Shown piece by piece: positions 28,776 to 64,000 of a stretch of 64,000 bases of DNA. The stretch spans positions 3,207,477-3,271,476 of the forward strand of contig WARS01000025.1 of NCBI GenBank assembly GCA_008933995.1, in the 5' to 3' direction. Source of the DNA: Datnioides undecimradiatus (lineage: Eukaryota > Chordata > Actinopteri > Lobotiformes > Datnioididae). The first letter of the stretch is position 1. Every line of letters begins with the position of its first letter. The notes below the pieces were generated by a model. The model saw nothing but the letters and a program-made list of their open reading frames with translations, made no database searches and was not told where the DNA came from. Position numbers and translations under genes: made by a program.

Positions 28776-29015
28776 ATCATCCACCCACCTATCCACATAC
28801 ACACAGAAAAAAAAAAGATGGGCGAGAAAGACAACTGCACTGTCATCTGAAGAGCTGAGCCAGATAAACTTCTGTCTCTTTCCTATTCTTCCTCTGATGC
28901 ACCTCCATCACTCCCTCCCTCCTTTTTCCCTTCCCCCCTTTTTGTCTCCACTTTTCCCACCGGTGCTGGCACTCAGTACAGAGAAGTTGTTCTCGCTATT
29001 TTCTCTATGTGAGTG

Positions 29016-29110
29016 GACCAGGCCAATAACTTCTCTCTTTAATGAGCATGTCGTGTTCTCCCGCTCTGCTCATTCCCCAAACACACTCTCCCACACTGGC
29101 GGCTTTCTGA
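29016..29110 (+). repeat. Diverged tandem duplication, copy 1
   Basis: GACCAGGCCAATAACT followed by CTCTCTTTAATGAG and then looser similarity down to TTTCTGA. The same order recurs 194 bp downstream. Copies differ by substitutions and small indels, so the event is not recent. The best-kept word contains CCAAT and TTAATGA. Confidence 0.85.
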
Positions 29111-29160: not shown

Positions 29161-29209
29161 AGGGAGAGGAAAAGGAAGTAGAGACAAAGATATTGTCGCT
29201 TTGTGCCCA

Positions 29210-29308
29210 GACCAGGCCAATAACTCCTCTCTTTAATGAGTGAGTGTCATGTTCCCCTGCTCTCTTAACTCTCCTAACACAGCCCCTCAAATGCGGATAG
29301 TTTTCTGA
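29210..29308 (+). repeat. Diverged tandem duplication, copy 2
   Basis: GACCAGGCCAATAACT at 29,210 matches copy 1 base for base for 16 bp, then C/T changes, CTCTCTTTAATGAG again, and a variable middle ending TTTCTGA at 29,308. Confidence 0.85.
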
Positions 29309-43839: not shown

Positions 43840-44020
43840 TACAGGCATAGTCGTATCAAATATTCGCTTCTAATTTCATCCCTTGAATTGCCATATCAAT
43901 GTCTAATTAGTTTACACTCGACCCAATTGCATGTGTTTAACGCGACTTCATAAAAGAAAAGGCCCACAATGGACGTGACCTTGACTTTCAACCAAAAACT
44001 GGAGCCATTACCGTCGTCAT
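43840..44020. promoter_or_regulatory. Conserved-like block with ERR/SF-1-type site
   Basis: CTAATTAG palindrome (43,903-43,910), AATTGCATGTG near 43,925, then TGACCTTGA at 43,976-43,984, which on the minus strand is TCAAGGTCA, the extended nuclear-receptor half-site used by ERR and NR5A factors. Repeat-free, several CpGs. Confidence 0.4.
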
Positions 44021-44344
44021 TACAATCTATGCCCAAGTGTGAAAGGATAAAGGGTGGCCATAAAGACAGAGACCAGAGGAAAGAGACGATGGGAGAAGGT
44101 CAGAACATTAATCACTTTTGGAACTAGATAAGAGGAAGCTCGATGAAAGAAATGCGGATGCTTGTGTTGTGATGATGATGACGAAGATGATAAAAGACTG
44201 GGCAGACAGAGACAGAGCTCTTTGTGTGTAGTCAATAGCGGCCAATGTCCAGTTTCTGACCATATCAATCTGTCAGTCTGTCTCCATTCAACTCATCACC
44301 TTCCCTCAGGCTACCTCTGGCTCTAAATTGAGGTCACATGTCAC

Positions 44345-44346
<2 letters not shown>

Positions 44347-44413
<67 letters not shown>
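44347..44413. repeat. (GT)33 microsatellite
   Basis: 67 bp of uninterrupted GT, the longest perfect array in the window. Confidence 0.99.
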
Positions 44414-44414
<1 letters not shown>

Positions 44415-44953
44415 ATACACAAGCACGAGGACAAGCGTCAAAAATGTAAGCTTGGGTCACTGCATCCTACGCAACCATGCACCAAAAACCACATGAGAAG
44501 AGGCGGACGCACATTACCATCCACAACTCATCCTGCCTGGGGGGGACAGCAGTACTTGACCCTGTTAAATATTAACTGGCATTGCTGTCATCAAGTGTCT
44601 AACGCACTTAACTGCTGTCCATAGTATCATACTGTCTGTCTATCCTACATCATCTCATTCAGAGATGCGATAGGACAAACACGTTCTGCCATTCTCTGTC
44701 CACTCTGTCTTTGTGCCTGATATACATAACCAGAAGCCGCCTTGACCTTTGTGACCAAGCCTGTTTAATAGAAGCCTGCACAAAGACACACCTAATGAAG
44801 ACCTCTGAACTATAAAGGCTGACATCCATCAAGTTATATACGTCCATGGTATAACATAGGACCAGCGAAACCACTCAATTACACAGCTGATGCACTCCAT
44901 TGTTTGAAGAATGGTAGGGACAAGTCATGGATGTATAATGAAAAAGCCTTGTC
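44414..44953. other. Unique sequence, nothing seen
   Basis: Ordinary complex DNA. Confidence 0.5.
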
Positions 44954-44957
44954 TGTG

Positions 44958-44988
<31 letters not shown>
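44954..44988. repeat. (GT)n microsatellite, one interruption
   Basis: GT with a GGGT interruption. Confidence 0.95.
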
Positions 44989-45844
44989 ACATATGTATGA
45001 ATGAATGGAAAAGCCAGCCTTATTCACCCCAGGGCTGACACTCGCGGGCAATCCCTCTCGCCTCTGCATTGTGTTTAACCCCTGACCTTTTGGAGTGATA
45101 CAGTGTCAGAGTGTTAAATACGTCTAGACCACTTACTGATCGGTGGGGTCAGAACAAAAGAGTCGGCCTCAGGACATCATTGACTGAGATTTATGAATGA
45201 AAGAGGAGAGACTGTGAGGATGTTTTGGATATTAAGGAAAGTGGCTGTTGAAGTAGATGTTGCAAATTCTGGCAAATACAATCTGGAAGGTAAGAATGCC
45301 TGTGAGAGCTTGTGTCCATGTGTGAATGTTCTTCTGAATTACATAATAGTAATTTGCAGAAATTATATTTTTATGACTTAATAAAGTCATTAATTCAGAG
45401 TCAGAAAACATTAAATGAAGCTGTGCTTATCAGCTTCGAGCCAAAGCATTTAAAAAACATTTTTCTTGCTCGATGGAGAGAGAGAAAATGTAATCAGTAA
45501 ATGATGAGCAATTGATCAAATGCAAATCTGGAAAGCAAATCTGTATTGGCTTTAAAAATTGGCTGCAAATGAGGTGGACTAAGTCCAAAAATATCCATCA
45601 AACTCTGGCAAACACAAAAAGTGAAAACAGAAAATAATCAAACTTTCATAGTTGGATAACAAGACAAGCTGCAACACACCTGCTGTGTATTTGGTTCATT
45701 TTTATGATGGAGTGCGTGCTGTAAGGCAGTAATCTACATAATGTAATGGAAACTGACAAAGGGGCTCCTCAAATGTGATACCTGCTCTCTGATAATCTCC
45801 CCTCTGTGTTTAGGTCATCTGTATTGTGTCAACACAAGCTTAAG
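44989..45844. other. Unique sequence, nothing seen
   Basis: AT-leaning DNA. Frames of 62 codons are not supported. Confidence 0.5.
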
Positions 45845-45866
45845 TGTGTGTGTGTGTGTGTGTGTG
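45845..45866. repeat. (GT)11 microsatellite
   Basis: 22 bp of perfect GT. Confidence 0.95.
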
Positions 45867-47814
45867 AGTACGATGGGGCTGTTGGGAGTTTTGGAAATCA
45901 ATAATGTCACGTGCTTAGACATATGCTAGGGTAGTTATTGGCTGGGATCATCAATCAACACACTCTCAACCCCATGAGTCTCTGCAAACCACAAACTATG
46001 GGGGTGCTGTCCCACAAACATAACCACTTGCCATAGCCCAGTGGTTATGTGCATGTACTGTGTATGACTTTGTGTATACTCAGAGGTGATCCTGTGGCAT
46101 TCCACATTATTCCCATTAAAGAAGATAAACGGCACTTATGGATCAAAGGAAGGACAATGAGGTCCTCCTACTTCAAATACACAACAGTTGTTATCAGGGG
46201 AGAAGCACTTTGCCCTAAGAGGGGTCTCTCCCTCAGAGGTCTTGAGAGCTAGCAGGGGGAAGACGTGGGAATAAGGGAGGATGAAATACAGAGGGTGCTA
46301 GTTAGGCAGTTTGCCTTAGGGATGCTCTTCACGGCTCTTATTCCATCTTCCGCTCCTCTGTGGGATGTTGTGTATCCTAGACCAGTCAATACCCCCAACC
46401 CCCTCCCCGAGGTGAGCCCTCTAAAACATGCATGAGTTTATGAGCTGAGAATGTGCCATTGGAGGCCTTCAGGGCTTTTCGAGGTGGTGGAATATCTAAA
46501 AGCTAAGTAAGACCATCTTTCCAGGATTAGGTCTAAGGGCTTTCTACCTCCTGTGTAATACTCTTTGAGTGTTCCTGCACTCGTCTCCTCCTTCTTTTAC
46601 CTCTTTTTCTTCCCAGACAGACATATGCCTCTATACATATAAATCAGTCCTAAAGCCTCAACCCTTGGGGCAGGTTTTTCCACAAATCCAACCTGTTTAG
46701 TGTAATGAGAGAAACTCCCACGTCCTTTGTACAAAGCTTAAATTGTAGTCACTCCATGAGGAACTATACAACCCCACAATGTACTGTAAAAAAATGTATT
46801 TTAAGCAAGAAGCGGGGAGCTCATCCCTCTTGATCTCACTTTTTGAGAGCCTTGTGAGGCTTTTTAGATTTAAATTAAAAATGCTCAATACTCTCTCAAG
46901 ACTATTTGAAAAGCAAGATGAGGAAAAATAAGATGGGGGTAGGTGGAAGGAGGGAGATTTGGGTCAATGAATGTTTGATGAGCCCAAATGGCCTGTAGTG
47001 TGACCCAGCTGCTGAGGGCCAGGTGGGCTTTTAGTGGAGGGCAAAGTGCAGCTGAACAGAGTTTGAGCGATTGGGAGCTACAGGACAAAACAGAGGGAGG
47101 CAAACATTTGGGAAAAAGTTTGCTAAAAGGATAGAAAATGTGTTTTTGTTTAAAAAGTTAGGGTGTATATTTTTTCATCTAAATTCATTTTAAGAACATT
47201 GTTTACTTCCAACGCTACATTCTTTACTTTTCCATGCACAGAAAAAGTTTGGGATCAATGCCTTGTCATGCCTAATGTGCACTGTCTGCAATCCTTCATA
47301 TTCAAAACTGGGTCTCGGTATCAGAGCATAGCTGACACAAATCACTGCTCAACTGCAAATGCGGAACAAAGAATGGGAAGAGAGCGTGATAGATGGATGG
47401 ATGGTGAGAGGAAGGACAGCCACAGCTGATGGAGGAGAGGACCCCCTACTTACCAGCACATTAATCATTAACATGCAAGAAAAAAAGCTGAAACGAACGC
47501 AGACATGATGACGCTTAAGCCACAACAACCCTTTACATGCAGCTCCTATTCAGAAACATGAGGGTTTTTCTTATATAAGACACAGATAGGAGTTGTTCCC
47601 TTTTCAACTACCTCTCACTTCATCTCATCAAAACCTACCCTCCTACTTCTTTTCCACCATGGCTTCCAATCTTATTTCCACCCATGTCTCTTTCACACAT
47701 TTTCCCTTACTCACACACTAGAATTTCTTTTTATTTGTTGCTGCTTTTGCATCCCCTGCTCTGCATTCCTCCATCCACCTCTCTCTCCTTCTTCCTCCAT
47801 CACAGACAATGATG
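45867..47814. other. Unique sequence, nothing seen
   Basis: Complex DNA with a short (GATG)3 at 47,391-47,404 and a CT-rich stretch at 47,600-47,805. The 88-codon plus frame at 47,163-47,429 has no domain. Confidence 0.5.
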
Positions 47815-48330
47815 CTTAGTGAATATTACAGTCATCCATCCTTCTTTTAAGTGCCGCCATTATGGTTACCAGATGCACTTATGGCTTTTTAGGCCCATTG
47901 ATTGGCACAATCAATACATCATCTTAGGAAAGTTTGGAGACACTACATTAGAGCTCCCAGACGCTCTTAAAGCTTTAAGCAGTAATTTGTATGGAGATGG
48001 GTGCTAGTTCATTATGTTAATGGTCAACAGCAGGTGGGTTGGGGTGGGATCTGAACGCCTTATGGCTGTTTCTGGTATTTCAAAATTGTTTTCCACAGGC
48101 TTACTGTGGTCAGCATGCTAAACATTATTTTCTCTTTTCAGGCCTCATCACTGCCATTAAGGTCACAAATGTCCCTGCAATCAGTTTTATCACAACTGTC
48201 ATCAACTGTGTTATGGTATCCATAATGAGAACCGCTGCCTACAAAAGGGCCAAGACAGTTGTTTCTATAATCATATTAATAAGTGCAACAAATCCATACA
48301 GAACACATCTTCTGCATGGTTTTCTGCGGT
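47815..48330. promoter_or_regulatory. Conserved-noncoding-element-like block with inverted PBX-like repeat
   Basis: ATTGATTG (47,897-47,904), GCA, CAATCAAT (47,908-47,915) is a perfect 8-bp inverted repeat of PBX-type TGATTG cores, within repeat-free sequence. A plus frame of 100 codons (48,039-48,341) contains an acceptor-like CTCTTTTCAG at 48,132-48,141 and a weak donor ATG|GTATCC at 48,215. The hydrophobic peptide is unfamiliar, so an exon is possible but less likely. Confidence 0.4.
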
Positions 48331-49493
48331 TGAACGGTTAATTTTTTAATACACAAGGATAACTGTGTTTTCCACGCAGTAGATGTAGTACTCAGTGACA
48401 ACACAACAGACATCAAAATAAAACAAAGGTCATAAACAATATAAAATGCCTCTGGAGGCTCGGCAAACGGAAGAAGCTATACTTCACTGTGCAAGAAATG
48501 CATGCTGTTGTTTCTGTTTAAACTCACCTATAGCCTGATTGGCCTTCGGTCAGTCTTCAAAAATATGGATCTGAGCTTTTGTAAACGTTTAAGAAAGGAG
48601 CAAGTAATAAGTCATCACTGTAGTTTTCACCATTGTTACTATCAGCTTTATGTGTAATTAAACCTTACCCATCATTGTTGAATTCATACAGTTGATAATC
48701 AAAGCATTTACCCATAAAATGTTAGATTCTGCTGTGGAGCACTTGCACCATGCTACGCCACAGATAAGCTCCGATTGCTTTACTATCTTCCCACTGGCCG
48801 CCAAGCTAATCTGGCATGTCAGCTCGCAATCAGGCTGAAGCAGGTGACATGTGACTGAATGGCTGAACAATGGGATGGAGCTTGGGTCTCAGATAAGAGA
48901 ATTAATATTGATTGCACATGCATGTCAGACAGATTGTGTCCATTAGGAGTCGCATAGCTCTGCTCAGTCACACTGGTAACATGCCTTGGCTGAGAGCTGA
49001 GTGAGGGAGGAGCAGACCAAAAGTTAATTTTATTTCAATATGTCCATCGTTAAAGTCATTGTTCCTTAAAGCATAAATGTTAAAGTTTGAAGTGTTTATT
49101 ATGATGTAGGTTCTAATATGTTTCATGGTTCCTACTATACAGTCATACTGTAATGTGGCCCATTTATCTGCAATCAAACTTGGTCAGTCTGACTGTATTA
49201 TTGTGAATTTTTTTTGTGTGGTCTGAAAATGTGCTGCTGACATTGAGAACTGAAAGTTCAATAGGAAAAGTATTCAGTCATTTGCTGACTCATTTGCTTC
49301 ACTTAGACCGAGGTTACATAAAATGTTCCGTCTATTTTCCCAGCAGCAGGGTTTGCACAGTCCAAATAAAGCTGCTGATATCCCCACACAGTCACCTATT
49401 CACAGATAAGGCATAAATAAAAGCACTCACACACTCAGTCTGGATAGTGTAAGTAACACCCAAATATAGATCTGTGTGTATACGTGTTTATAT
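48331..49493. other. Unique sequence, nothing seen
   Basis: Ordinary AT-leaning DNA. T8 at 49,208. Confidence 0.5.
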
Positions 49494-49515
49494 ATGTGTG
49501 TGTATGTGTGTGCGA
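49494..49515. repeat. (TG)n microsatellite, interrupted
   Basis: TG with a TAT interruption. Confidence 0.85.
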
Positions 49516-49639
49516 GAATGAGAGTGAGAGACAGACAGACAGCGAGCGCTAAGAGCTATAACTGTGGGAGTGTTTTACAAGCTCAAAGCCCTGTGCCTGC
49601 TCCTCTAATTCAGCACACACATTGCACTTTCAGCAGATC

Positions 49640-49857
49640 AATGATCCCACTGTGCCTCACACTCACACACAATCTCTCTCTCCTCACATCCACACATATG
49701 CACATATACCCTCAAAAGTGCACACAGACAAACACACATACATTCAGTCCTGCTCATTTCAACCTCCCTTCACTCCTGCTCTGTTTCTCGTGTACATGTG
49801 CTCTCATATACCCTCCTCTCTCTCTTTTTTCCATCCCTTCTTCTCTCTGAGGCCCTG
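49640..49857 (+). repeat. CA-rich then pyrimidine-rich tract
   Basis: CA words grade into CTCCTCTCTCTCTTTTTTCC-type sequence, with a G8 run soon after at 49,903. The 124-codon plus frame (49,476-49,850) is His/Ser/Leu-rich and reflects this composition. Confidence 0.7.
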
Positions 49858-50049
49858 AGCAATTACTCATCGAGACTCTAGAGAAGAGCAAAAGAAAAGG
49901 GTGGGGGGGGCAACTGAGGAGAAGGAAGAGGACAGAGGGATGGATGGGAAAAATAAAGGGAAATTGCAGGAGTCCAGGAGTGTGTAGCATTTAAACAGGA
50001 GCACTTCAAAACATCTGCTCTGCAATGACCAGGATCAAGGTGTCAGACG

Positions 50050-50150
50050 AGAGTGTGTGTGTGTCTCATTTGTGCAAGTAAACGTCATGTGCATACATGC
50101 GTGTGCACACGCGTGTGTATACATGCATGTGTGTGTTTATGTGTGTTGTG
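50050..50150. repeat. Alternating GT/CA-rich region
   Basis: GTGTGCACACGCGTGTGTAT and TACATGCATGTGTGTG form long purine-pyrimidine alternations with a palindromic ACACGCGTGT centre (50,107-50,116). Confidence 0.75.
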
Positions 50151-50331
50151 GGGCATCTGTGAGAGAGGAGGGTCACAGCAGTACGACACAACATCATTTA
50201 TTCATTGGGGAGAGTAATGCGTGTGTGTTACAGCTGGGACGCACATGCTCTCCAAACAACACACACATGCACATGGACACTTCTGGAGAACAGACTTAGT
50301 CCTATCGACCAGCTGTAGCGCTCTTACTGCA

Positions 50332-50360
<29 letters not shown>
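50332..50360. repeat. (CA)14 microsatellite
   Basis: 29 bp of perfect CA. Confidence 0.97.
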
Positions 50361-50365
<5 letters not shown>

Positions 50366-50438
50366 TAGAAACACTGTTGAAATGGCCATTATATACTGGG
50401 GAGAAGTTATAATGGGGAATACAAGTAAATACTCTCTT

Positions 50439-50458
50439 TGTGTGTGTGTGTGTGTGTA
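50439..50458. repeat. (TG)10 microsatellite
   Basis: Perfect TG run 80 bp from the preceding CA array. On opposite strands, the two could pair in single-stranded DNA. Confidence 0.95.
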
Positions 50459-51028
50459 TCTTCTTGCAGTCTCCCCAGCCTTCACTAAGCTCTCAGGTTG
50501 ATCCATTTAAAACACAATGAAGGATTACATTCTCATCTGGCCACTGGCTTCAGCCTGCACAGAAAAACACTAAGGCTTTAATACTACCTTGGCACAGACT
50601 GTGTCTACGTCTAAGGGAGTGTGTGCTTTCATACGTTATGCAAGCAACACAAGTTACCCGTACAAGTGCACGTCCATCAGTGTGTCTATGTGTGTATCTG
50701 TGTGTGCAGGAGGCTCGGGCCTGTCATAGTGAGGGCAGGTTGGGGGGATAAGACCCCTCTCCAGTGTGGAGTGGTTGTGAATTGGTTTTGGCTCCGGGCT
50801 AAATCTCCTCACAGACACCTCTTCGTTTTCTCCACAAGACCAGAAAAAAGACTGCTTTCACTCAAGCCTCACACAACACATCCAATTCACTGTGATTTGA
50901 GCCAGTCCTTGGCCAAAATGCAGGTGTAAATGTGTGCAAACACACACAATGTCTCTCCCTCTCTATGCATTTCTCTCTCCACTATCTCATTTCCACAACC
51001 ACTGAATTATTTTCAAAACAATAATGGA
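50459..51028. other. Unique sequence with GT/CA words, nothing seen
   Basis: No convincing exon. Plus frame of 102 codons (50,621-50,929) is unsupported. Confidence 0.45.
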
Positions 51029-51041
51029 CCCCCCCCCTCCC
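51029..51041 (+). repeat. C-run (C8 T C5)
   Basis: Homopolymer C interrupted by one T. Confidence 0.85.
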
Positions 51042-51399
51042 CCATATCCAAGCCTGCATGTCATTCTTCTACAACCAAACAACAGCTTAACCATAAACCC
51101 CTGCTCTCACACACATGTACACACGAAACGCAAACACACATACATGTGCACACACACACAGAAAAAAACAGTAACCATTCCTACATACCCGAGCCCCCCA
51201 CAAAGAAGACGACAGTTGCAGTCTGTCTATCCGGCAGTATTCAGGCCCCTGATTAAACCAGCGCTTATTGGTAATTAAACACTGTGCTTTGTGGCAGTAT
51301 CCAGAATGCTGTAAAGCACTCCACCTCCCCACCACATACACACCCATCCCACCTCGATTGGCACAATGCCGTCCCCTCCTCTCCTCTTTTTCTGCCTTT

Positions 51400-51475
51400 C
51401 AGGGGGCCGCAGGTGGCACAATTGGCAGTAATGTGTTCTAATTGTTGGCAGCGCTGCCCGGGTAAAGATACGTAG
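51400..51475. other. Complex patch with NFI-like words
   Basis: GGCACAATTGGCAGTAATG and TTGGCAGCGCTGCCC (51,445-51,459), the latter a palindrome-like NFI half-site pair. Repeat-free island between CA-rich and purine-rich DNA. Confidence 0.25.
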
Positions 51476-51479
51476 TGGG

Positions 51480-51755
51480 GAGCGGGAGCTTGGCTGGCAT
51501 ATAGCAGGAGACAGGAGAGGTGGGAGGAATTGAATGTAAGGTGGAGAAGAGGAAGGTAAAAAATGGAGGGAGGATGGGGAGCAAAGTATTGAGGATGTAT
51601 GAGGAAAGATGGGATTAAAGTAACCAGCAGAAGTAATATGCCAAGCATATTATTAGAAGGGACAAGGTGAGGATGTAATGTGAATAACACCAAGAAGAGG
51701 GAGAGTGGAAATAAGAATGAAAGACAGAGAGGAGAGTGGAAGAAATATAAACCAA
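51480..51755 (+). repeat. Purine-rich tract
   Basis: About 270 bp of A/G-dominated plus strand. The 172-codon minus frame (51,265-51,783) is Leu/Ser/Phe/Pro-rich because its coding strand is CT-rich. Confidence 0.75.
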
Positions 51756-53413
51756 AAGAGGATGCTGTTCCCATCGTGTCCAAATGTTTCCTTGCTGTTG
51801 TTGTTTTTCCAGGCAGCTTGGAGACAAACTCCCCTGGGTTGAGGCTTAGCTATAACTGCAGAAGAGACCGACACAGCACGAGTTGCTGGCCTCATGTAGT
51901 AACAGGGAGGTTAGACACGAGCCTAAGTTGCTGAGTTCCTGACCATAAAAACCCCTGGGGTTTTCCAATTCACTCTTTGTATATAGAAATGTCCAGGACA
52001 GAGTGGAGTATGGTGAGTGTAAACAGAGAGCCAGTGAGTTTATACTTCAGTACAAATAATCAACATATTGTTGTTTCTCTTCAGCACTGATCCACACAAA
52101 CAGTTCTTTCCCTATAAGCATTCAGACGTGTACTGTCGCCACTCCTCTATTAAATCCTCTCCAAAAACCCTCAGACATCGGCACCACGCAATCTGTTATC
52201 GCTTGTTTAAAGCGCAGGAGTTGTTTTGATTTAAGTGCAGTAGGTTGTTTAATCAAGTACTTTACTTAATGTATTATTAGACAGGATGACAGTACTGTGA
52301 GACAGGAAAATATGGAATGAGAGGTGAGAGGAGGACAGGAAAGAAGCAGAGAAGAACGACAGAAGTGAGGAGGAGAGTCAAGAGCAACCGTGGGGCATAG
52401 GCTGTCTGGCTGCATCTTGAAATTATATAAAACATAATTTGACATCCATATTTGTGGACAAATATGTATCTAAAGCCCTCCTCATGTCAGAAGATGCTCC
52501 AAGTATTTTCTGGCAGTGCAAACAAAACTCATGCATTTTATCACCACTGCTGGGAAACTAATCTTAGTATTTCAACCTATATAAAACTGCTAGTTCTTGT
52601 AAGAAAATATATGTTACATAGCATTCTTGGCTAAAATACCATTACAATACCTTCTATAACAGAAATTTAATTGAGACAGTCAACAAGATAATGCTTAAAA
52701 CAGCATGTCATCACCTGTGAAGTAGATCTGTGCTATGTTGGATTTCATATTTTTTAAAAAAACCCAACAAATCAGGTCAAAAAGCTTTGTAGCTGGTCTG
52801 TATTTCCAGTCTTCATTTCAGTGTTGACTGAAACTGAAATGATGGCCAAATGTGTCAATGCCATGACAATGCCATAAGACAAAATGAGTCATGGTTCATT
52901 GAGATTCTTCCCAGGCTCTGTCTATTGTGTACGTGTGTATGTGTAAGTGTGAGAGTGACTCAGCAGCTCTCCTGCGGCGCAACAGCACCTGTTCTTCAGT
53001 ACTCGTCGACAGGTGCTGCCATCCCCCCTGAATGTTGTTAACGTGGACTAAATCAGATGGAAAGGCAGAGTGACAGCCACCGAGCATACGTGGATTTGTC
53101 ATGAGACACTGAGAGCCAGAAATAGTCCTCATAGATAATGTGGTGAGATCTAGGGATGTCACTATGGTGGTAGACATACTGTACTTTTATACACCTATAC
53201 CTGACACTGAAACTAGTCTATATAAATATTATCTTACATTGTCAAAGCTACATGATTGGTATGCTCTAGAGACTAACGGGAAACACAGGAGCAGAAAATA
53301 AAGGTCATAGGCCTGATATAAACAAACTGTGATTACATGGTGGGACTCCTAGCCTTCCCCGGCACATGGATGCCCCCAAAATATATCAAGAAGTGCACTA
53401 TTTGAATACAGAA
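51756..53413. other. Unique sequence, nothing firm
   Basis: TTGTTTTTCCAG at 51,801-51,812 is acceptor-like and one frame then stays open about 40 codons, but no clear donor follows. A purine patch lies at 52,310-52,382. A two-base-limited TATA-poor remainder shows no motif cluster. Confidence 0.45.
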
Positions 53414-53440
53414 AGGGTTTGGTAGGGTAGGGTTTGGTAG
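53414..53440 (+). repeat. Short GGGTTTGGTA duplication
   Basis: GGGTTTGGTAGGGTAGGGTT: two GGGTTTGGTA units separated by GGGTA. G-rich but short of a four-run quadruplex. Confidence 0.75.
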
Positions 53441-53722
53441 ACACGGCTATGTGTCTTGCGATCAAATTGTGTGCACACGCTGTATGCGTGACTGTGCGTG
53501 TGTCTTATCTTTAAAGGCAGATAGGCAAGTGAGAGGGGCTGCTTCACACGCATCCATGTTGATAGTCACACACCCAATCATGGTTATCTCTCTGGCTACA
53601 CGCATGCACACACAAACACATCCTGTCACATCTCTCTTACACATCTCTTACTCCGTCTCACGTTCCATGTCTCTCGCCATCCCTCTTCCTCTTTCTTTCA
53701 CTTTTTCTCTCTCCCTGTACAG

Positions 53723-53758
53723 TGGCTCTGCACGAGCTGTTGGGTCATCTCCATGCAG
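53723..53758 (+). other. Candidate 36-nt micro-exon
   Basis: A strong pyrimidine tract (53,670-53,717) and CTGTACAG precede 36 nt (a multiple of three) ending CAG|GTGGAA. All three frames are open. One reads ALHELLGHLHA, containing HELLGH, the zinc-binding motif of dipeptidyl peptidase 3, but the residues after it do not follow that family and no other such exon is nearby. Chance is the simplest explanation. Confidence 0.17.
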
Positions 53759-53833
53759 GTGGAAACTTTGAGATGAGACAAAACCCACTGGAATGAAAAC
53801 TGCAGTGAGCTTGTGAGAAAACACTGCTGCTGC

Positions 53834-53847
53834 ATTACCATGGCAAC
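53834..53847. promoter_or_regulatory. X-box-like motif
   Basis: ATTACC, AT, GGCAAC: one mismatch (first base) from the RFX consensus. Confidence 0.2.
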
Positions 53848-54052
53848 GGTGAAGAGAGCATGTGTTGGAGTCAGAGTCTCAAGGTTACTCAATCTCTTCA
53901 TGTTTTAATAATACCACTCCCTTATGAAAGGAATATTACATCCCTTGTAAGTATGATGAAAATACATATCAGATCTCTCCAGCCAGTGTATTCGTACAAT
54001 GAACATGGAGAACCTGCCATTAAGGTTAAGACAAGGAAATGAACTGCACATA

Positions 54053-54073
54053 TCTTGGTTTCATTAACCAAGA
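54053..54073. repeat. 8-bp perfect hairpin
   Basis: TCTTGGTT, loop TCATT, AACCAAGA. Within chance expectation for the window. Confidence 0.5.
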
Positions 54074-55730
54074 CTTGAGCTGATGAGGCCTGATTTCAGA
54101 CTATTACATGGGTATACTATTTCTGGCTTGGCCTATTTAAATGGGACAAGATTGGTCAAAACCACCGGTGTGTGTGTTCCTCTTTGGAATAGGCAGCGCT
54201 GAGAGGGGAAGGAGGAGGTGGACTTTAGTGTATATTAAACCACCACATACACAGATGAAGATAGTCTGAGTAGGATACATACAGGGCTGGCAGTGTTTAT
54301 ATGAGAAAAAGGGAGTGAATCCATCAAAGCAGCTGAAAAGCTTTTTATGGTCAGAGTGTGTCCCATCTTTTTCCCAGGTGTTTGTGTCGGAGGTGAAGCA
54401 GCAGGTGAATGACTAGCTCTGCACTGATGTCTGTGTAGGTGGGGTGAAGGAAGCCTGCTGGGATTCGGGTTTTCCACCTGATCCATCTCTGGACACACAT
54501 GTGGCCTGCTGAAGCTGATGACAGTGGATCTGACAAATGGCATTCTGCATGCAGTTAATGAGGGAAGAGCAGATGTATGCTGCCTCTCTGGAGATACTCT
54601 GTGTGAGAGTGCATGTGCCTTAGATACAATTAATTGTGTATACATCTAATATATGCGTGCTCGCACAATGCCATGATTAACATATGTCATGACAGATAAA
54701 TAAGTCACATATAAGCACATAGAAGCATAGACTACAGAATGCACAGAAGCAGTTTTCTTTCTGTAGTGGATACCAGTTCAAGTCCTCACAGTTCAGTCTC
54801 CACAGTCTTTCAAAATCACATGGAGATGCATGCCAACACTTGTTAGCAAGGTGATTTACATAGAAACATAAGGATATTTCTCCTCTTTGCACAAGAAGGA
54901 CACGTGATTTTCACATGCTCTTCCAGTTACATATGTGTTGCATATATACGTATAGCACATATATCATGCACAGCATGCCAGCAGGCAGCTTGATACGATA
55001 ACCATCTAAAAAAAAAGCTTTGAAAAGAAGAAACATGGCTGCACTATATTCCCTCCATTTTAAATAATTAAACAGCAGTGAGCTTTACACAAGAGAAAGA
55101 TGAAACAGAATTGAAGAACAATATGTTAAAGATGTTATAATACAAAGATTTATTTGTTGTTGTTAAGACAGAAATGAAAGAGCTATTAAAGCAGGAAGGG
55201 GTGGAGTCAGCCTCTTTGCTGTCTTGGTTGATACAGCTCAGTTTTTTTCCGCCACTCAATAATATGCTGTCACTGCTCTACTGTCCACTTTCCTCTTTTC
55301 ATGACTACACAAGTTGTTGTTTTCATCAGCCTCTCTTTCTTACTCTGCCTCTTTGATCTGGAGTGCAGACTATCATGAGTTGTGTGTTTATGTCTGGGCT
55401 CTAAAGTCTCCGGTCTGCTCTACAGCAGCAACAACCACTGCAGTGCTACAGCATGCACTGACCCCTGACAGAACCGCTGCGGTGCTAGCAGAACCCTCTC
55501 TGACATAAATTCATGATATTAAAGAGATTATGTTAACCCAAGAGGAATAAAACGAGAGTAAACAGTCCCTGCTGTAATACGTTTAGACCTTCTGGCCAAA
55601 TAATTGTGGCAAATTCAATTAAGTCTTCAGAGCTGGAGGGACAGTGAGCATTTCATTTGTTTTGACAAAGACTTCACTAAGCAGGCAACTGCATCCGAGG
55701 ACTGGAAAAAAGTTGTAATTATTTTGAGCG
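54074..55730. other. Unique sequence, nothing seen
   Basis: Complex DNA. Minus frame of 136 codons (54,235-54,645) has no recognisable domain. Frames at 55,604-55,864 run into the RE1 module below and are not called. Confidence 0.5.
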
Positions 55731-55798
55731 TTTCTGTGACATGGCAACAAATCCAATGTGTAAACAATGTGACCCCGTCTCCTGCGACTGGAATCACA

Positions 55799-55819
55799 GC
55801 CGCTGGCCGTGGTGCTGCC
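55799..55819 (-). promoter_or_regulatory. RE1/NRSE (REST-binding) motif, copy A
   Basis: Minus strand reads GGCAGCACC, AC, GGCCAGCGGC, matching 17 of 21 positions of the canonical RE1 (TTCAGCACC, AC, GGACAGCGCC) at canonical half-site spacing. REST (NRSF) binds RE1 to silence neuronal genes outside neurons. The mismatches include one in the right half (C for A). Confidence 0.6.
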
Positions 55820-55844
55820 GGTGCCAATCTGAGGGGCTTCTCGG

Positions 55845-55865
55845 GTCACTGTCCGTGGTGCTGAT
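55845..55865 (-). promoter_or_regulatory. RE1/NRSE (REST-binding) motif, copy B
   Basis: Minus strand reads ATCAGCACC, AC, GGACAGTGAC, matching 18 of 21 positions, including an uninterrupted 16-base identity over both half-sites and spacer. A specific 16-mer is expected about 3 in 100,000 times by chance over both strands of this window. It has the same orientation as copy A, starts 46 bp apart, and lies in a CpG-enriched patch. Confidence 0.8.
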
Positions 55866-56011
55866 CCAACTCTGACCTATACATTCTGTGTGTGCTCAGT
55901 CTTAACCTGAGTGTTGTACTCTAGTTAAGCGCATGTTTTAGAGTTGATCGATATTCCATTGTCACTTTTGAAATATAAGGTAAAACCATTTGTGATTAAC
56001 AAGGTCCGGCC

Positions 56012-56058
56012 ACAATGCATTGTACCCATTGTACTACAAAGCCTTTTGCCATTGTTTT
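56012..56058. promoter_or_regulatory. Cluster of five SOX-type motifs
   Basis: ACAATGCATTGT (56,012-56,023) is a perfect palindrome of two SOX sites. CATTGT (56,027-56,032), ACAAAG (56,036-56,041) and CATTGTTTT (56,050-56,058) follow. SOX HMG factors, including neural SOXB proteins, recognise these cores and often act as spaced dimers. The cluster lies about 150 bp from the RE1 pair in repeat-free sequence. Confidence 0.5.
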
Positions 56059-56600
56059 CAAGTCTTGCATTGTGACAGGGTTGCAGCTGGAACACATGGA
56101 CAGCACTGTAATCATCTCTTTGCGGTTATTCTTTATCGCCTTGCTAAAATGAATGTGGCTCTAAGAACAGCAACACTGTTCACTTGATTGCTTCCTCAAT
56201 CACACAGTCAAACCATCGGCTGTTACCAGACCCAGCCGTAATATACAACGCATCCTCTGGGGTATGAGTGGGCTTTTAGACTCTGTCTTGTTTTCTTTCT
56301 TGCGGGAAAAAAAGCTGAAAAATAATTGATTTAGCACACCAGTACACACTCTCTTATGAAGCCACAGAAACATTAAAAACTCAATTTTGAACCTGCGAAA
56401 ACATAAACAAAAATGTTTTTAGCAGTCAAGTTTCTTAAAAGATATTTTTGGCCTAATTAAGCAGGCAAACGTTGGCGGTGGCGCATCAGAGCATGAACCA
56501 CTAAGACAGGCAATTTCACTGCTCTCTCCTCTCTTCTATAAACTATTAATTGATCTCCGGGGAGCCTTGCTGTTTAAGCTGTTCAGAAATATAGAGGAGA
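56059..56600. promoter_or_regulatory. Conserved-noncoding-element-like block
   Basis: Continues the RE1/SOX region with repeat-free sequence including CTAATTAA (56,453-56,460), several CpGs near 56,470-56,485 and ATTAATTGAT (56,544-56,553). No exon signals. Confidence 0.35.
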
Positions 56601-57297
56601 CTGTACCACAACCTTTAACAGAAAGTGGGAAACACCCCCTTGGGTAGGGAGCTGCTAGTATGGACTGGGTCTAAAAAACCAATGAACTTGGTCTCACCAC
56701 TGCATAATGAAGTCATTATCACGTTTGTGAGTCCAACTCCAGAGTTGTCAAAGAATGTCTAGTGTATGTGATCTCTTCAAACCTAACAGGGTAGAACTAT
56801 AATTGAGAGGAAAAAAACATAATTTAAAGAAGATCAAAACTTCTTCTCTGTTCATATGGGGTCGAGAAAGGCCTTGATGAGTTAAAACCCTTCTGTCATA
56901 ATTTACGCTCAAAATCTTGTTACAAAAACAAACCAAGCACCATTAAAACTTTGACTAATTTGGCTAAGGATTCACCCCATTTGAAATTCAGATGTCTCTC
57001 CACTTATGAATGATAAATAAGGACTGGGAGGTTATCATCAGTGCCATGCTGGTCCCTGTGTGTCTATGAATGTGTGTTATATTATTAATGACATTATACT
57101 ATACCATCTAATAGATTTAGCCATGTTCTACAAGCTAAAGGGTATCAGTATTTAAACAGTAAAAAAAAAGTAAATACCAACCTTAGTAATGCTGGACTTA
57201 TTTAGTATAGTAAAATTTGAAGTTGATCACGACTGTGACTATGTGTACGTCTGAGTTAATGCTTCTAACTGCTTCTATGTAAGCTCAAACACATGTT

Positions 57298-57301
<4 letters not shown>
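56601..57301. other. Unique sequence, nothing seen
   Basis: Ordinary AT-leaning DNA with A9 at 57,162. Confidence 0.5.

Positions 57302-57328
<27 letters not shown>
57302..57328. repeat. (TG)13 microsatellite
   Basis: 27 bp of perfect TG followed by TATA8. Confidence 0.97.
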
Positions 57329-57841
57329 ATAAAAAAAACACACCACCACTGGCAGCATCAGCAGCAGAGGCGGGAGGTAAACCAATTGCATCTGCTAAGA
57401 GATGCTCCTGATGTGTGACGATGGTGGGGCCTGGAGGTCCACAAACAAGCCAGCCAGCCTACTCGTCTGTCACAAGCAACAGAAAAGTGACACGCCACAC
57501 ATCATGAGCAGAAACTCACACACGTTTATAACAGACAAATGTAAAAACTCCTTTCTTCTCTCCCCTCATCTCATGTGCTTTGGCTTGCTACATATGAACC
57601 CGCAGGTATAAACAAAGACTCAAATTCAATCTTTTTCCAACTTTCCGTGGCTCAATTCTAAGCACGGCAGCAAAAACAGACAAATAAGTTTAAACAACAA
57701 GGGACAGTGGTGAAAGGTGCCATGATGTAACAAACTGTAAACAAATACAGTGGAACAAATCACTGTTTGTCTCAACACGACGGAAAGTAGACAGACCTGG
57801 AGACCACAGGAGAGGGTATAACTTTCCATCAAGCACAGAAC
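57329..57841. other. Unique sequence, nothing seen
   Basis: No feature of note. Confidence 0.5.
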
Positions 57842-57879
57842 AAGAGTGTGTGTATATGTGTGTGAGTGTGTGTGTGTGA
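57842..57879. repeat. (GT)n microsatellite, interrupted
   Basis: GT with TATAT and GAG interruptions. Confidence 0.88.
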
Positions 57880-59534
57880 AGGAGGGAGAAATGGAAAGGG
57901 CTCGGTCACAATGGAATTCATAACAAATTTAAATTCATTTAAATGGAGTGGCCAAGATCAGCGGATTTACTCATGGAGAACTCACACATAGATAACGTTT
58001 AACGCAGTGGAAGAACTGGGTGAACTTTGATACGTAAACCTGTCGCTGACAAATTTCAAATCATTCTGACATTGATGACCTTTGAGGTAACAGTCAAAAA
58101 CCAAGTGAGCTATTACAGTATACAATGCAGATAAAAATCTCAAAGGCAACTAGTAACTTTTGTTATCTATGCACGGCACTATGTGGTTTGAACCATGACA
58201 TGACACGTTGTGTATTTATTTCAACACAAAATGCAACTGGCCACAGTCAGTGGTGGCCACCGCACAACCTGAAGTCACTGTATCAGCGTTTTAGTATTGG
58301 CTTTTTGGTGGATGAATGAATTTATCTCTGCAGCTTTCTGATGCAACAAGGTCCTGAAATTGACTAGGAAAGAGGTGCTGGATGAGCAGAACTGAGAAAT
58401 CAAAGAAGGTGACAGCCAACAGAAATGTTGATTGAGTGCGTAATTCTGGAAGTGAAAGACAAAGCAAAGACTCGAGAAAAAGGTGAGAGTGCAATAACAA
58501 ACTCCTATGCTCTAATGATAAGTTTAATGCATTATTATTATTAACCCAGATTGTACAAAAGAGGGGGTTCCCATGTCTGTCTCCGTTTCTCTCTCTCTGT
58601 CTGTCAAACACACGCACACACAGGCTGCCCACATTTTCTTCAGACGAAAACACTGGTGAACTGGTCACCGGTGGAATGGATGGTCACCACACATCATAAA
58701 AAGCATGGAAGTGTGTATGTGCTCCTCAGCTATCATTATGGAGTAGTGAATGTTGTCTTTGCTGCTGCTCCTAAACAGTACATGATCAGGCAAGTCTATG
58801 ATTCATCAGCCTCCACCATGGGAAACATCCCCACACCGCAGCGATAAACAACGGAAGAAGAATCCCCATAGATCACAAAGGGGAACCTCGCCGGTGTGCC
58901 TACGCGTGTGTGCATGTGCGACCTCGTGTGCACATGTGTTACTATCCCTTATCATCACGGGCATCCATCACAACAAGCAGCTGAATAATTCAACGCTACA
59001 AAATAAAGGAACATCCTTGTGCATGCTGAAGAATAAATGGCCTCATAAATGATGAAGGAGAGGATGACAAACCAAAAGGGCTACCATGGTGTAAGCAACT
59101 CATTCATTTTCTTATGTATTACTGTGCTTTTGTCCATGTGTCTGCATGTATGCATGTGGATCCTTTATACCTCTCCACGTGTGTAGAAAAACTACAAACA
59201 AGGTGCACATAAACATACACATCAGCGGATATTGTACTCTACAAAGATTCTATTTCCCCTCGGGGTGACTTACAACACAAAGCAGTTGGGAGCTAGGCCA
59301 AACAATTTTCTTTAACACAACAACAGCAGTAGTCTTGATGCTTGAATGTAGAGAGGCCCAGCTTATTTAGAAAATATATTGATAGAGAAGAGAGAGTTAT
59401 GACAGAATCAGGGAGGGAGACAACAGTGGAATGGAAAAAGAGGGAAGAAAACGCAATGGAGAGATGACTGGAAATGAAAAGACAAAGGCAATAAGGCAAA
59501 AGCAAACACTGGGGCTTATTGAAAGTGCCAAGGC
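57880..59534. other. Unique sequence, nothing seen
   Basis: Includes (ATT)3 at 58,534-58,543, a CT-rich patch at about 58,578-58,602 and a CpG-bearing stretch at 58,885-58,925. No supported exon. The 125-codon minus frame at 58,291-58,668 is unfamiliar. Confidence 0.45.
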
Positions 59535-59578
59535 ATACACACACACAAACACACACACACACAGACACACACACACAA
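59535..59578. repeat. (AC)n microsatellite, interrupted
   Basis: AC runs separated by AAAC and AGAC units. Confidence 0.95.
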
Positions 59579-59746
59579 GGATGGAGATGTAGCATATGTC
59601 TCCAGAAGTGCCAGCTGGAGACATCTGGTGCCAAAACTCCACAGGTCAAACCAAGTGACATGCTCCCTGAGGCGTGGATGGGAAAGTGTGTGCATGTCTG
59701 TCTTTGTGCCAAATGATTAAAATGACCATTATGTTTGAATAGAGTA

Positions 59747-59790
59747 TACACAAAACACACATGAACACACACAAACACACAAAAACACAT
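59747..59790. repeat. CA-rich tract, interrupted
   Basis: ACAC runs with AAAA and ATGA interruptions. The 165-codon minus frame (59,293-59,790) and the 125-codon one (59,646-60,023) are Cys/Val-rich products of these arrays. Confidence 0.88.
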
Positions 59791-59907
59791 ACGGTCATCA
59801 AAGAATCTAAATTGGATGTGAATTCAAAGTGCGACGTGTACAGAGATGGAGCAACAGAGAGCCTGTGTGTTTCAATCTTTGTGTTGTGTGTGATAGAACA
59901 CAGATGT

Positions 59908-59919
59908 CCACCAGAGGGG
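59908..59919 (+). promoter_or_regulatory. CTCF-like core motif
   Basis: CCACCAGAGGGG then CG: matches CCASYAGRKGGC except the last base. Orientation is opposite to the candidate at 396-407. Confidence 0.25.
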
Positions 59920-60473
59920 CGACAGAAAAGGCAAGAAGGACGGGGAAGATGGAGGATAAGAGATGAATTCTCAACTCTAAACTTCCTGACCAGAGGCCTG
60001 GCAGCTTCAAAGGAAAGACCCAATAAGACAAAGCTGCTGTTAACTGCTGCCTAGAAAAACAACGGACACAAACAAAACTATTTTATGGCTCACCCTGAAC
60101 ACTACTCTCGCGATCATTACACACAGCCGATTTCAAGACATACAAATGAAAACTTAGTAAACTATGTGATGGTCACCAGTAAAAGTGCGGCCATGATTAA
60201 GCAGCAAATGATGAATGTATATATTCAGGAAGACTGTTTTGTTGGCCCTGCTTCCAGTGATATACAGTATACCATAAACTGGTGTTATAAAAAGTTATGT
60301 AAGGCTATAAAAGGAGCGAAAACTGGTTCTTAGGCTCACTGAAACAGAAGAGAACTGAGGAAAAATAATACTAAACTAAAGTAAAGTTGCTTTATCCTCC
60401 ACTGCTGCATTGCTGATGTATTTTTACTGTCCTTTCAACAAGACAGCCAGACAAAGGCCTGAGCAGTCCACAG
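59920..60473. other. Unique sequence, nothing seen
   Basis: Ordinary DNA. Plus frames of 97 and 82 codons show no coding features. Confidence 0.5.
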
Positions 60474-60551
60474 TGTTCTCAAATCTGATTAGTAAGAGTT
60501 ATTATCAGTACATAATGTTCTCAAATCTGATTAGTAAGAGCTATTATCAGT
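60474..60551 (+). repeat. 42-bp tandem duplication
   Basis: TGTTCTCAAATCTGATTAGT and TAAGAG(T/C)TATTATCAGT repeat with a period of 42 bp and a single T/C difference over 36 bp, so the duplication is recent. Each unit holds a TGATTAGT homeodomain/OTX-like word. Confidence 0.95.
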
Positions 60552-61495
60552 GTAAATAATACAATTGTTTATTTATTAGAAATATGCTGTTACAAAAACC
60601 AGATGCTGTGTCTCCTACAAGACAATGGCCAGTCTGTTGAAATGAATTTAATTCACACACAGAAACACATAATTAAAACCATCTTTTCACAAAATATGTG
60701 ACGAAAGGGACGAAATGATTGGTCTCTACTTTGTAAAAAAGTGTTTTGTTGAGACTGTTCTCCCTTGTGCATCTACATGAATGACTGAAGTGTGTTCTGA
60801 CTGAAGTAGTAGAATTTGCCAAAGAGAGATTAAAAAACTCAAGGATCATAACTGAAGGTCAGATGTCGGGGAGCTTTCACACTGAAGCTATCTCTTCAAG
60901 TTCAACAAAATGGAAATCTGAATACACACAAACACAAATCTGGACACGGAGCATAAACTAACCGTAGGTCAGTTAGGGACAAAATACTTAAACAGTTGCA
61001 CAATATATGGGAGAATTCTGCCAAATTCTCAGAAACACACACACTGTCCCTCCAGTGAAAATTGCCCACTTTCGACAGAGATCTGGATTTCATCATTCAA
61101 TTCCAAACAAATGGCAATTACTTTCATCCCTCACTCTTACAACAACAAACTCAGAAACCACAGCTGTTTTCATAAAGCTAAGCCACTCTACCCATATCCC
61201 ATCCAAGCCTCCTCTTTACTAGTCCTTTTTGGATTCAAGCAGCTTATTATGCCAACAAAAACACCAAAGAGCTCTGAGATGTATATTACTCTTCAGCGTG
61301 GCTGTGTTACTGAGGAGTACTGAAGTAAAACAGTGCTCATCAAGCCGTGGAGAGTTTACTGCAGAATTAGCATTGGCTCACAGCTTCCAGTGCAAACAGA
61401 CAAACAGAGAAACAGAGATATGATTGTTATACTGGTTGTCCGGCATTGCTCATTAGGGCTGAAGAGAGATACGCTGGCAGGGCCCAATCAAACTA
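60552..61495. other. Unique sequence, nothing seen
   Basis: AT-leaning complex DNA with overlapping plus frames of 64-83 codons, none supported. Confidence 0.5.
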
Positions 61496-61526
61496 TGTGT
61501 GTGTCTGTGTGTGTGTGTGTGTGTGC
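61496..61526. repeat. (GT)n microsatellite
   Basis: GT with one CTG interruption, ending in GCGCAC. Confidence 0.95.
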
Positions 61527-61622
61527 GCACGCTCGCAGTTACAGCTGTATTTGTGTGTTACACAGAAGTCTGTGTGCTCATTAGACTGCCTGTAGAGAGA
61601 ATGAGAGCCAGTGGCCAGAAAA

Positions 61623-61638
61623 ACACACACACACACAC

Positions 61639-61681
<43 letters not shown>
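61623..61681. repeat. Compound (CA)8-(GA)20 microsatellite
   Basis: (CA)n at 61,623-61,639, ATG linker, then perfect (GA)n at 61,642-61,681. Confidence 0.98.
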
Positions 61682-61685
<4 letters not shown>

Positions 61686-62095
61686 GAGGCAGAGATGAGG
61701 AGAGAGACAGAAACAGACATGAGAAAAGAGACATTCTTAAACTACATTCAACAATCAGATCAAGAATACAAATTAGATGCACAGCAGGATACTGACGACC
61801 GCATACACGAACATCCCATCTGAGTTAAATCTCTAATAAAAACAAAACTGAAAGAAGAATTGAAAACCTTGATTGTTAGTGCTGACATAACCCACAGACA
61901 TGAAGAAAGAGGTTAAAACTGACAGACGAGCCAACCTTAACCCTCTAACAACGAGACCTCTTCCAGTGCAATCACACCACGCCCGAAACATCAGACATTT
62001 AGACGGTTAAAACAAATCACACACGTATATACACACACATACGTTCATATTCAGTTTATCATTCAACACCAGTGACCCTGTCGTTTGGCTCACTG
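61682..62095. other. Unique sequence, nothing seen
   Basis: Purine-rich at first, then ordinary DNA. Confidence 0.5.
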
Positions 62096-62245
62096 CTCAC
62101 ACAGCCAAACAAACACGGGAGAGGAAAAGGGCAACGTCCATCTCTTGTCCCGACCATCATGACCAAAGCATTTAGCGGCCATGCCTGATTTGTCATTAGT
62201 GCTCAAGGCCGACAAGTCAAGCATTTTTAATACCAGTCCCGATTT
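62096..62245. promoter_or_regulatory. Conserved-like block
   Basis: Repeat-free with scattered CpGs: AGCGGCCATGCCTGATTTGT near 62,174, GTCATTAGTGC and AAGGCCGACAAG. Stops in all frames. Confidence 0.3.
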
Positions 62246-63285
62246 TCATCTCTTCATAGACACTGGGATATAAGTTTATAGATTTATTTGTAACTAATCT
62301 ACATGTTATTTTATACAATTTCTTGTTTTGGAAATTTCCTGTTGTCAGCAAGTGCACGGACCTTGGCCCACATGCACTAAATAAGAGCGTGCAACCACGT
62401 GAATCAAGGAGAAAAGTTGTATAACATCTGAGTCACCAAACGACTGTAGGTCAGCCGGAGGTGAAGCCAGCCGCAGTGCAGAGCTGTGATGCTCAAAGTT
62501 TGAGGTTTAAATCTTGCACAGACTTCCAATCGTGGATACAACAATGTCATTGGCTTTCAAGGATTAAATGATGCATGCATAAGAAACATTGAGTAAATAT
62601 GGTTTTAATTAGAATGTGCAAGTTCATTATGTTTTTCCCTGTTCAATCGCCTTAAACAGAAAACAAATATATTCAGGAAGAATTAGAATACTGTATTGTA
62701 AATGAATTTTCAATTATGTGGTCTAAATCTTCCTCAAAGTTATTTTTCAAGCTATTGCATTTATCCTTCACAAACTGGAGTACAACATAACATTTTTAGC
62801 TGAGAGTGGTGTTGAAATGTAATTCCTGACTACATGTTAGATGATGGGAGTGACTATATAATGCACCTTCACACCCTTAAAAAAAATTACAATTTGTATT
62901 TAAATACTGAAGCACGTGAAAAATATTTTTTCCCAATTTCGCACATAACCAAAGAAATGAAATGTGCTCCTTTTAATTTGAGGATTGAGATATCTGTGGA
63001 TATAACTTTTCTTAACTCATCTGCTGTCATTTGCCAGTTGTGCCACAACAAGCATGATAAAACTGCAACAACCAATCAAAAATCCTTAACGACCACTCAC
63101 ATTAAGACTACTGAGCTCTATTAGTATTTAGTCAGCTAAGGAGTGGATAATGCTCACAGTTTATTAGTTTTAGTATCTGGCTTAAATTGTGTGACTATTA
63201 GATTAAAATAATCTTTAATTATGTACCCAACAGGATAAGTACAGTGGGGGACATGTTAATGATATGGTGAACAGACGGCACCATT
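62246..63285. other. Unique AT-rich sequence, nothing seen
   Basis: Low-GC DNA. The 96-codon plus frame at 62,834-63,124 is Lys/Thr/Asn-rich and unrecognised. Confidence 0.5.
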
Positions 63286-63299
63286 GTCATTCCTGTCAC

Positions 63300-63362
63300 T
63301 GAGAGTGAGTGAGACGGAGGGAAAGAGAAAGGAAAAAGAAAGGCTGATAGAGGAGAAAGAAT
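63300..63362 (+). repeat. Purine-rich tract
   Basis: GAGTGAGTGAGACGGAGGGA and AAGAGAAAGGAAAAAGAAAG. Confidence 0.7.
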
Positions 63363-63508
63363 GTGTGTCTGTGTGCGTGCGCCCACACCCATGTGGGTTA
63401 GAGCCAGTAAGCACATTTGCTGAACCCATCATTAAGTTCTCTCCCCTTGTGGTTGGTGTCAGGGTCTAGACAGGGAGACAAAGCCTGGGCCTTGCCTCCA
63501 CATGGTAC

Positions 63509-63561
63509 CCAGGGGAGAGGGCAGAGGCCCGGGGGAGAGAGCTGGGGTGGGACAGCACGTC
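63509..63561 (-). other. Candidate 53-nt exon in GC-richer right edge
   Basis: On the minus strand, CTGTCTGTCTGTCACCCAG forms an acceptor at 63,562. The next 53 nt are GC-rich and one frame reads DVLSHPSSLPRASALSP, with a weak donor GG|GTACCA at 63,508. The same frame continues to a stop at about 63,465. The peptide is unfamiliar; high GC alone could keep the frame open. Confidence 0.18.
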
Positions 63562-63567
63562 CTGGGT

Positions 63568-63581
63568 GACAGACAGACAGC
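63568..63581. repeat. (GACA)3 repeat
   Basis: Short tetranucleotide run followed by purine-rich sequence to about 63,640. Confidence 0.85.
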
Positions 63582-63743
63582 AGGGAGGAAGGGAAGCCAA
63601 CAGAGGGAAGTAAGAGGGATGGGGAAGATGTATGAACGTATGGCGACAGAGATGAAACTACAGTATCTTTCTTCTTATTAAGAAGGAGGAAGGGGTGCAC
63701 ACTTGGCACGCTGGTGTAAGGGGGGTAATTAGTGAGGGAAACA

Positions 63744-63856
63744 CACGTGTCCCCTCATTGAGGGGGTCCCCTGGGTGGGGAACAGCTCAATCAGTAGCCA
63801 GCTGCAGGTATATAGGGGTCGTATGTTAGTGGAGTGCAGGTGCCAGAGTACAGCTG
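63744..63856 (+). promoter_or_regulatory. E-box cluster with TATA-like box
   Basis: CACGTG (63,744-63,749), CAGCTG (63,799-63,804), CAGGTG (63,837-63,842) and CAGCTG (63,851-63,856) lie in 113 bp, with TATATAG at 63,809-63,815. E-box groups mark bHLH-controlled promoters and enhancers. No transcript start can be placed, and the window ends soon after. Confidence 0.35.
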
Positions 63857-64000
63857 CACTTTTACCCTTTGCACTCTGACTCATTAATTCTTGTGCTACA
63901 TTAAAGGGTTTACTAACACATACAAAGAGACACACACATCTCTACTGAATACCGGCTGCACTAATGGCGTCTTTCACTGTCTGAACATCATACACAACAC

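Follow-up and report, generated by a model that had tools for sequence, protein, structure and literature searches.

Two adjacent RE1/NRSE motifs on one strand of a Datnioides undecimradiatus contig form a candidate REST-dependent silencer

The RE1 pair and its genomic setting

The window, meaning the whole 64-kb stretch of DNA analysed here, contains two closely spaced RE1/NRSE motifs on its minus strand. Together with their immediate surroundings they comprise the following features:

55799–55819, minus strand: RE1/NRSE copy A, full 21-mer, GGCAGCACCACGGCCAGCGGC; second-best RE1 score of the window
55803–55818, minus strand: core of copy A; two mismatches to TCAGCACCNNGGACAG
55820–55844, no strand: gap of 25 bp between the 21-mers, equal to 30 bp between the 16-bp cores
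55845–55865, minus strand: RE1/NRSE copy B, full 21-mer, ATCAGCACCACGGACAGTGAC; best RE1 score of the window
55849–55864, minus strand: core of copy B; perfect TCAGCACCACGGACAG
55661–55960, no strand: one of six GC- and CpG-richer patches in the window; encloses both sites and may mark the extent of the element
55639–55647, plus strand: isolated RE1 right-half-like sequence GGACAGTGA, exact, on one side of the pair
56098–56107, plus strand: isolated RE1 right-half-like sequence GGACAGCACT, on the other side of the pair

A sequence-only reading had proposed two same-strand RE1/NRSE motifs 46 bp apart, and both were recovered at 55799–55819 and 55845–55865 of the minus strand. The copies share their orientation, and the start-to-start distance of 46 bp corresponds to ~4.4 helical turns. 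With the canonical RE1 TTCAGCACCACGGACAGCGCC as printed in PMC3529185 taken as the reference, copy A matches 17 of 21 positions and copy B 18, the identity of B being unbroken over the 16 bases of positions 2–17; the figures of the earlier reading (16 unbroken bases for B, 17/21 at canonical spacing for A) were thereby reproduced. Both copies have the canonical 2-bp spacer between their half-sites, which rules out an atypically spaced RE1 (half-sites 8–9 bp apart), and A retains 7 of the 9 left-half positions. Copy B also fits the degenerate 17-mer search motif NTYAGMRCCNNRGMSAG, from which copy A departs at just one position, position 2. Compared with the core TCAGCACCNNGGACAG, B is free of mismatches and A carries two; the five next best places in the window carry three. 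Judged by their bipartite 21-bp motif, 2-bp spacer and core, the two sites can be assigned to the canonical RE1/NRSE class.

No convincing Pfam exon domain or transposase was found when six-frame translations, with stops written as glycine, were scanned at E 0.01 or E 0.05 over nearly the entire 64-kb window (five of the six frames at 59200–64000 and the plus strand at about 59001–59200). These exon scans were run without a positive control, and short, Pfam-domain-free or non-coding exons would escape them. Matches to Atrophin-1 (E 0.017, under the curated cut-off) and DUF4134 (E 0.03) were taken as chance. All six frames of 48801–63800 gave no match among PDB sequences at E 0.01. The stretches picked out by a codon-usage scan, based on an approximate codon table, were mainly of low complexity or weak; the RE1 patch was among them (11.3 bits), with no protein match. 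No Rfam family reached its gathering score in the window and no tRNA was found there. Nine Rfam matches at E 0.5 in 44000–64000 all lay well under their cut-offs, the best of them at CA/GT repeats, and were rejected. Because the Pfam, PDB and Rfam scans gave no convincing gene, the pair probably lies in an intron or in intergenic DNA, and the window is probably a large intron or a gene-poor stretch. The neuronal target gene that the sequence-only reading placed beside or around the window did not emerge from these scans, which covered the window itself. Such an exon-poor setting is not odd for an RE1, since in human, mouse and frog the distance to a gene exceeds 20 kb for about 65% of NRSEs and 100 kb for 17–24% (PMC4430910).

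The window as a whole has a GC content of 42% and a CpG observed/expected ratio of 0.32, which seems low for a teleost. Only 17 of 3190 200-bp windows pass the joint thresholds of GC ≥0.5 and CpG observed/expected ≥0.6. The patch at 55661–55960 is compatible with a regulatory element, and part of its GC content comes from the RE1 sites themselves.

Dinucleotide repeats, many of them CA repeats, are abundant in the 64-kb window; together with its GC content and CpG ratio they fit a vertebrate source. It also carries a 50-bp direct repeat that is not simple sequence (28997–29046 and 29191–29240, 84% identical, 194 bp apart) and a 42-bp tandem duplication at 60464–60547 (90% identical). A transposon origin of the RE1 pair gained no support: no copy at 55.7–55.9 kb occurs among the repeat copies listed (at least 40 bases; the two largest families, both simple-repeat, are listed in part), and there was no transposase match.

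Strength of the two sites

The window was scored with two matrices built here, a consensus matrix derived from two published consensuses and a site-count matrix derived from 15 sites. The consensus matrix gave 24.3 bits for B, 22.0 for A and 13.9 for the third-best place in the window; the 15-site matrix gave 24.6, 21.9 and 10.6 bits, respectively. A and B are therefore the top two places of the window under both matrices, and the matrix scoring named as a check in the earlier reading did not refute the pair.

As yardsticks we used 14 predicted human RE1s near miRNAs (PMC1794552) together with the canonical site, scored leave-one-out under the site-count matrix. B outscores 8 of the 15 yardsticks under the consensus matrix and 6 under the site-count matrix; the corresponding numbers for A are 6 and 4. 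By this comparison A and B fall in the usual RE1 range, with A in its lower half, a range that is no binding threshold.

A search for half-sites at 75% of the maximum score gave a weaker result. The left half of B passes this cut; the right half of B and both halves of A fail. Across 55000–56700 the sole further match is the isolated right half at 56098–56107, and no left half above the cut was found near either right-half-like sequence (55639–55647 and 56098–56107). A third RE1 or a half-site cluster was consequently rejected, leaving just this isolated right half and the exact GGACAGTGA at 55639.

These differences bear on whether both copies would work. It is possible, though we doubt it, that B is the sole working RE1 and that A is weak or decayed and attracts little occupancy, making the element effectively a single-site silencer. 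The two core mismatches of A, its rank below 11 of the 15 yardsticks under the site-count matrix and the failure of both its halves at the 75% cut point in this direction. So do two literature reports: just one NRSE lies within 100 kb of 80–90% of putative target genes (PMC4430910), and in a human reporter assay silencing was absent for weak motifs scoring under a boundary value (PMC9903721). However, A is the second-best match of the whole window and leads the third by 8 to 11 bits under the two matrices, and it keeps the 2-bp spacer and most of its left half. In 1000 column-permuted matrices run on the real window, none reached A's score with its second-best match (highest 18.2 bits), just as none reached B's score with its best (highest 23.9). 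The single-site reading is in any case a weaker form of the two-site explanation and does not exclude it.

Duplication and chance

The sequence-only reading had also suggested that the shared core might reflect a local duplication. Under this explanation, tandem duplication of one site produced the pair and the extra copy has no separate function. The copies are identical at 16 of 21 positions, they form a 15-base direct repeat (93% identical) at the 46-bp spacing, and a short gapped match, CCAA-TCTGA, lies downstream of each. Yet this likeness is explicable by constraint alone, because 30 of the 91 pairs that can be drawn from 14 printed RE1 sites also share 16 or more of 21 bases (mean 14.6). 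The flanks do not align significantly either: in register they match at 3/24 and 5/24 positions, and gapped alignments gave P = 0.84 upstream and 0.083 downstream. The suggestion is thus unsupported and we consider such an origin unlikely; an old duplication with since-diverged flanks would be compatible with the sequence, but nothing calls for one.

To express chance expectation, tail probabilities were taken from a first-order model of the window over both strands, with a GC-matched null at GC 0.616 as the alternative. At window composition, 0.0045–0.0055 sites like A and 0.0006–0.0009 like B are expected per 64 kb; the GC-matched null raises these values to ~0.02 and 0.003–0.004. Simulation of 300 windows produced two sites scoring at least as high as A, one of which (26.2 bits) exceeded B, and with so few events it is the coarser estimate. 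Scaled to a gigabase, about 70–90 single sites like A and 9–14 like B are expected at window composition, and about 340–370 and 46–59 at GC 0.616. Pairs this strong within 100 bp are expected at 0.0001–0.004 per Gb, assuming independence of the two sites. A gigabase genome should therefore contain single sites this strong by chance alone, but no independent pair within 100 bp. What the sequence shows directly is the two motifs with their order and spacing, and how improbable they are.

That the motifs are RE1-like by chance and unbound is very improbable: the pair was picked from 64 kb after many kinds of motif had been looked for, single sites of either strength arise by chance at the gigabase scale and a site outscoring B turned up in one of the 300 simulated windows, but independent pairs are expected at the minute rate given above and none of the 1000 permuted matrices yielded a comparable pair in this window (two matches of at least 18 bits within 100 bp among its own top 30).

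Predicted silencer function and known paired elements

We consider it likely that the two adjacent RE1 sites constitute a REST/NRSF-dependent silencer. As a candidate, the pair resembles a vertebrate silencer of ordinary type but high strength; REST binding, corepressors, tissue logic and a neuronal target are inferred from what is known of the RE1 family. REST, through its zinc fingers, would occupy B firmly and A more weakly in non-neuronal cells as well as in neural progenitors. REST at the pair would then recruit CoREST, Sin3A, histone deacetylases (HDACs) and other corepressors (CoREST, Sin3A and histone deacetylases are summarised as REST corepressors in PMC4430910), and these would hold a neuronal promoter off, that of the host gene if the pair is intronic and otherwise that of a neighbouring gene.

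The cooperative or buffered REST recruitment proposed in the sequence-only reading is plausible by analogy with other paired sites. The second site may raise local REST occupancy with no need for contact between two REST molecules. Additive occupancy would be likelier than direct contact, because an offset of 46 bp (~4.4 turns) should place the two sites on different sides of the helix. Chromatin immunoprecipitation by Bruce et al. 2004, as cited in PMC3531662, found occupancy to be greatest with two different sites within 30 bp.

The closest known counterpart is REx2, one of the two zebrafish elements, REx1 and REx2, described by Bergeron et al. 2012 (PMC3531662). The core of B equals the first core of REx2, which is also that of the REx1 element, letter for letter, and in both systems two unlike RE1 16-mer cores lie in a common orientation. 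Spacing is also similar, at 46 bp start-to-start with a 30-bp core gap here and 43 bp with a 27-bp gap in REx2. REx2, however, is synthetic, sits at a promoter and has two perfect cores, whereas one core of the present pair departs from the consensus at two positions and a promoter was not found.

According to the same source, Rest binding to the REx1 core had been shown earlier. At least 10% of zebrafish embryos carrying REx1 or REx2 showed brain-only expression, compared with 0/114 of those without; REx2 gave neuron-only expression in 26.4% of embryos, the top share among the constructs tried, and in 3 of 10 REx2 lines repression eased upon rest knock-down (PMC3531662).

Other paired elements are more distant. 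Tandem NRSEs (2xNRSE) bias driver expression to the nervous system in zebrafish transgenes (PMC3529185). Like the present pair, 2xNRSE places two RE1 sites in tandem, but it is a synthetic repeat of one canonical 21-mer, and in one construct it precedes a minimal promoter by 18 bp. The dual RE1 of KCC2 (reviewed in PMC7730145) likewise comprises two RE1 sites at one gene; there the sites flank the transcription start, whereas only 25 bp separate the two sites described here. A PGBD5 study (PMC3902484), considered as a possible pointer to a REST target, was not relevant.

Published reporter data also indicate that RE1 sites do not silence in every context. In zebrafish, UAS reporters escaped paired-NRSE silencing in two studies (PMC3531662, PMC3529185), and one of them saw the same failure with REx2 positioned intronically, downstream of the promoter (PMC3531662). 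In a human reporter screen, strong repression was seen with just 31% of the canonical RE1s bound in ChIP (PMC9903721).

A more specific proposal, which we regard as speculative and rather unlikely, is that the pair represents a natural equivalent of REx2 and operates at long range from a region lacking protein-coding exons. B would anchor REST and A would tune its residence, giving graded repression between high- and low-REST tissues.

RE1 sites are numerous in zebrafish, with 1102 potential sites at up to one core mismatch (PMC3531662). As a natural pair of one strong and one weaker RE1, close to a spacing already tested in synthetic form, the two sites would offer a handy test of whether neighbouring RE1s act additively or buffer against mutation; otherwise, the pair simply adds to the many RE1 sites that a vertebrate genome carries.
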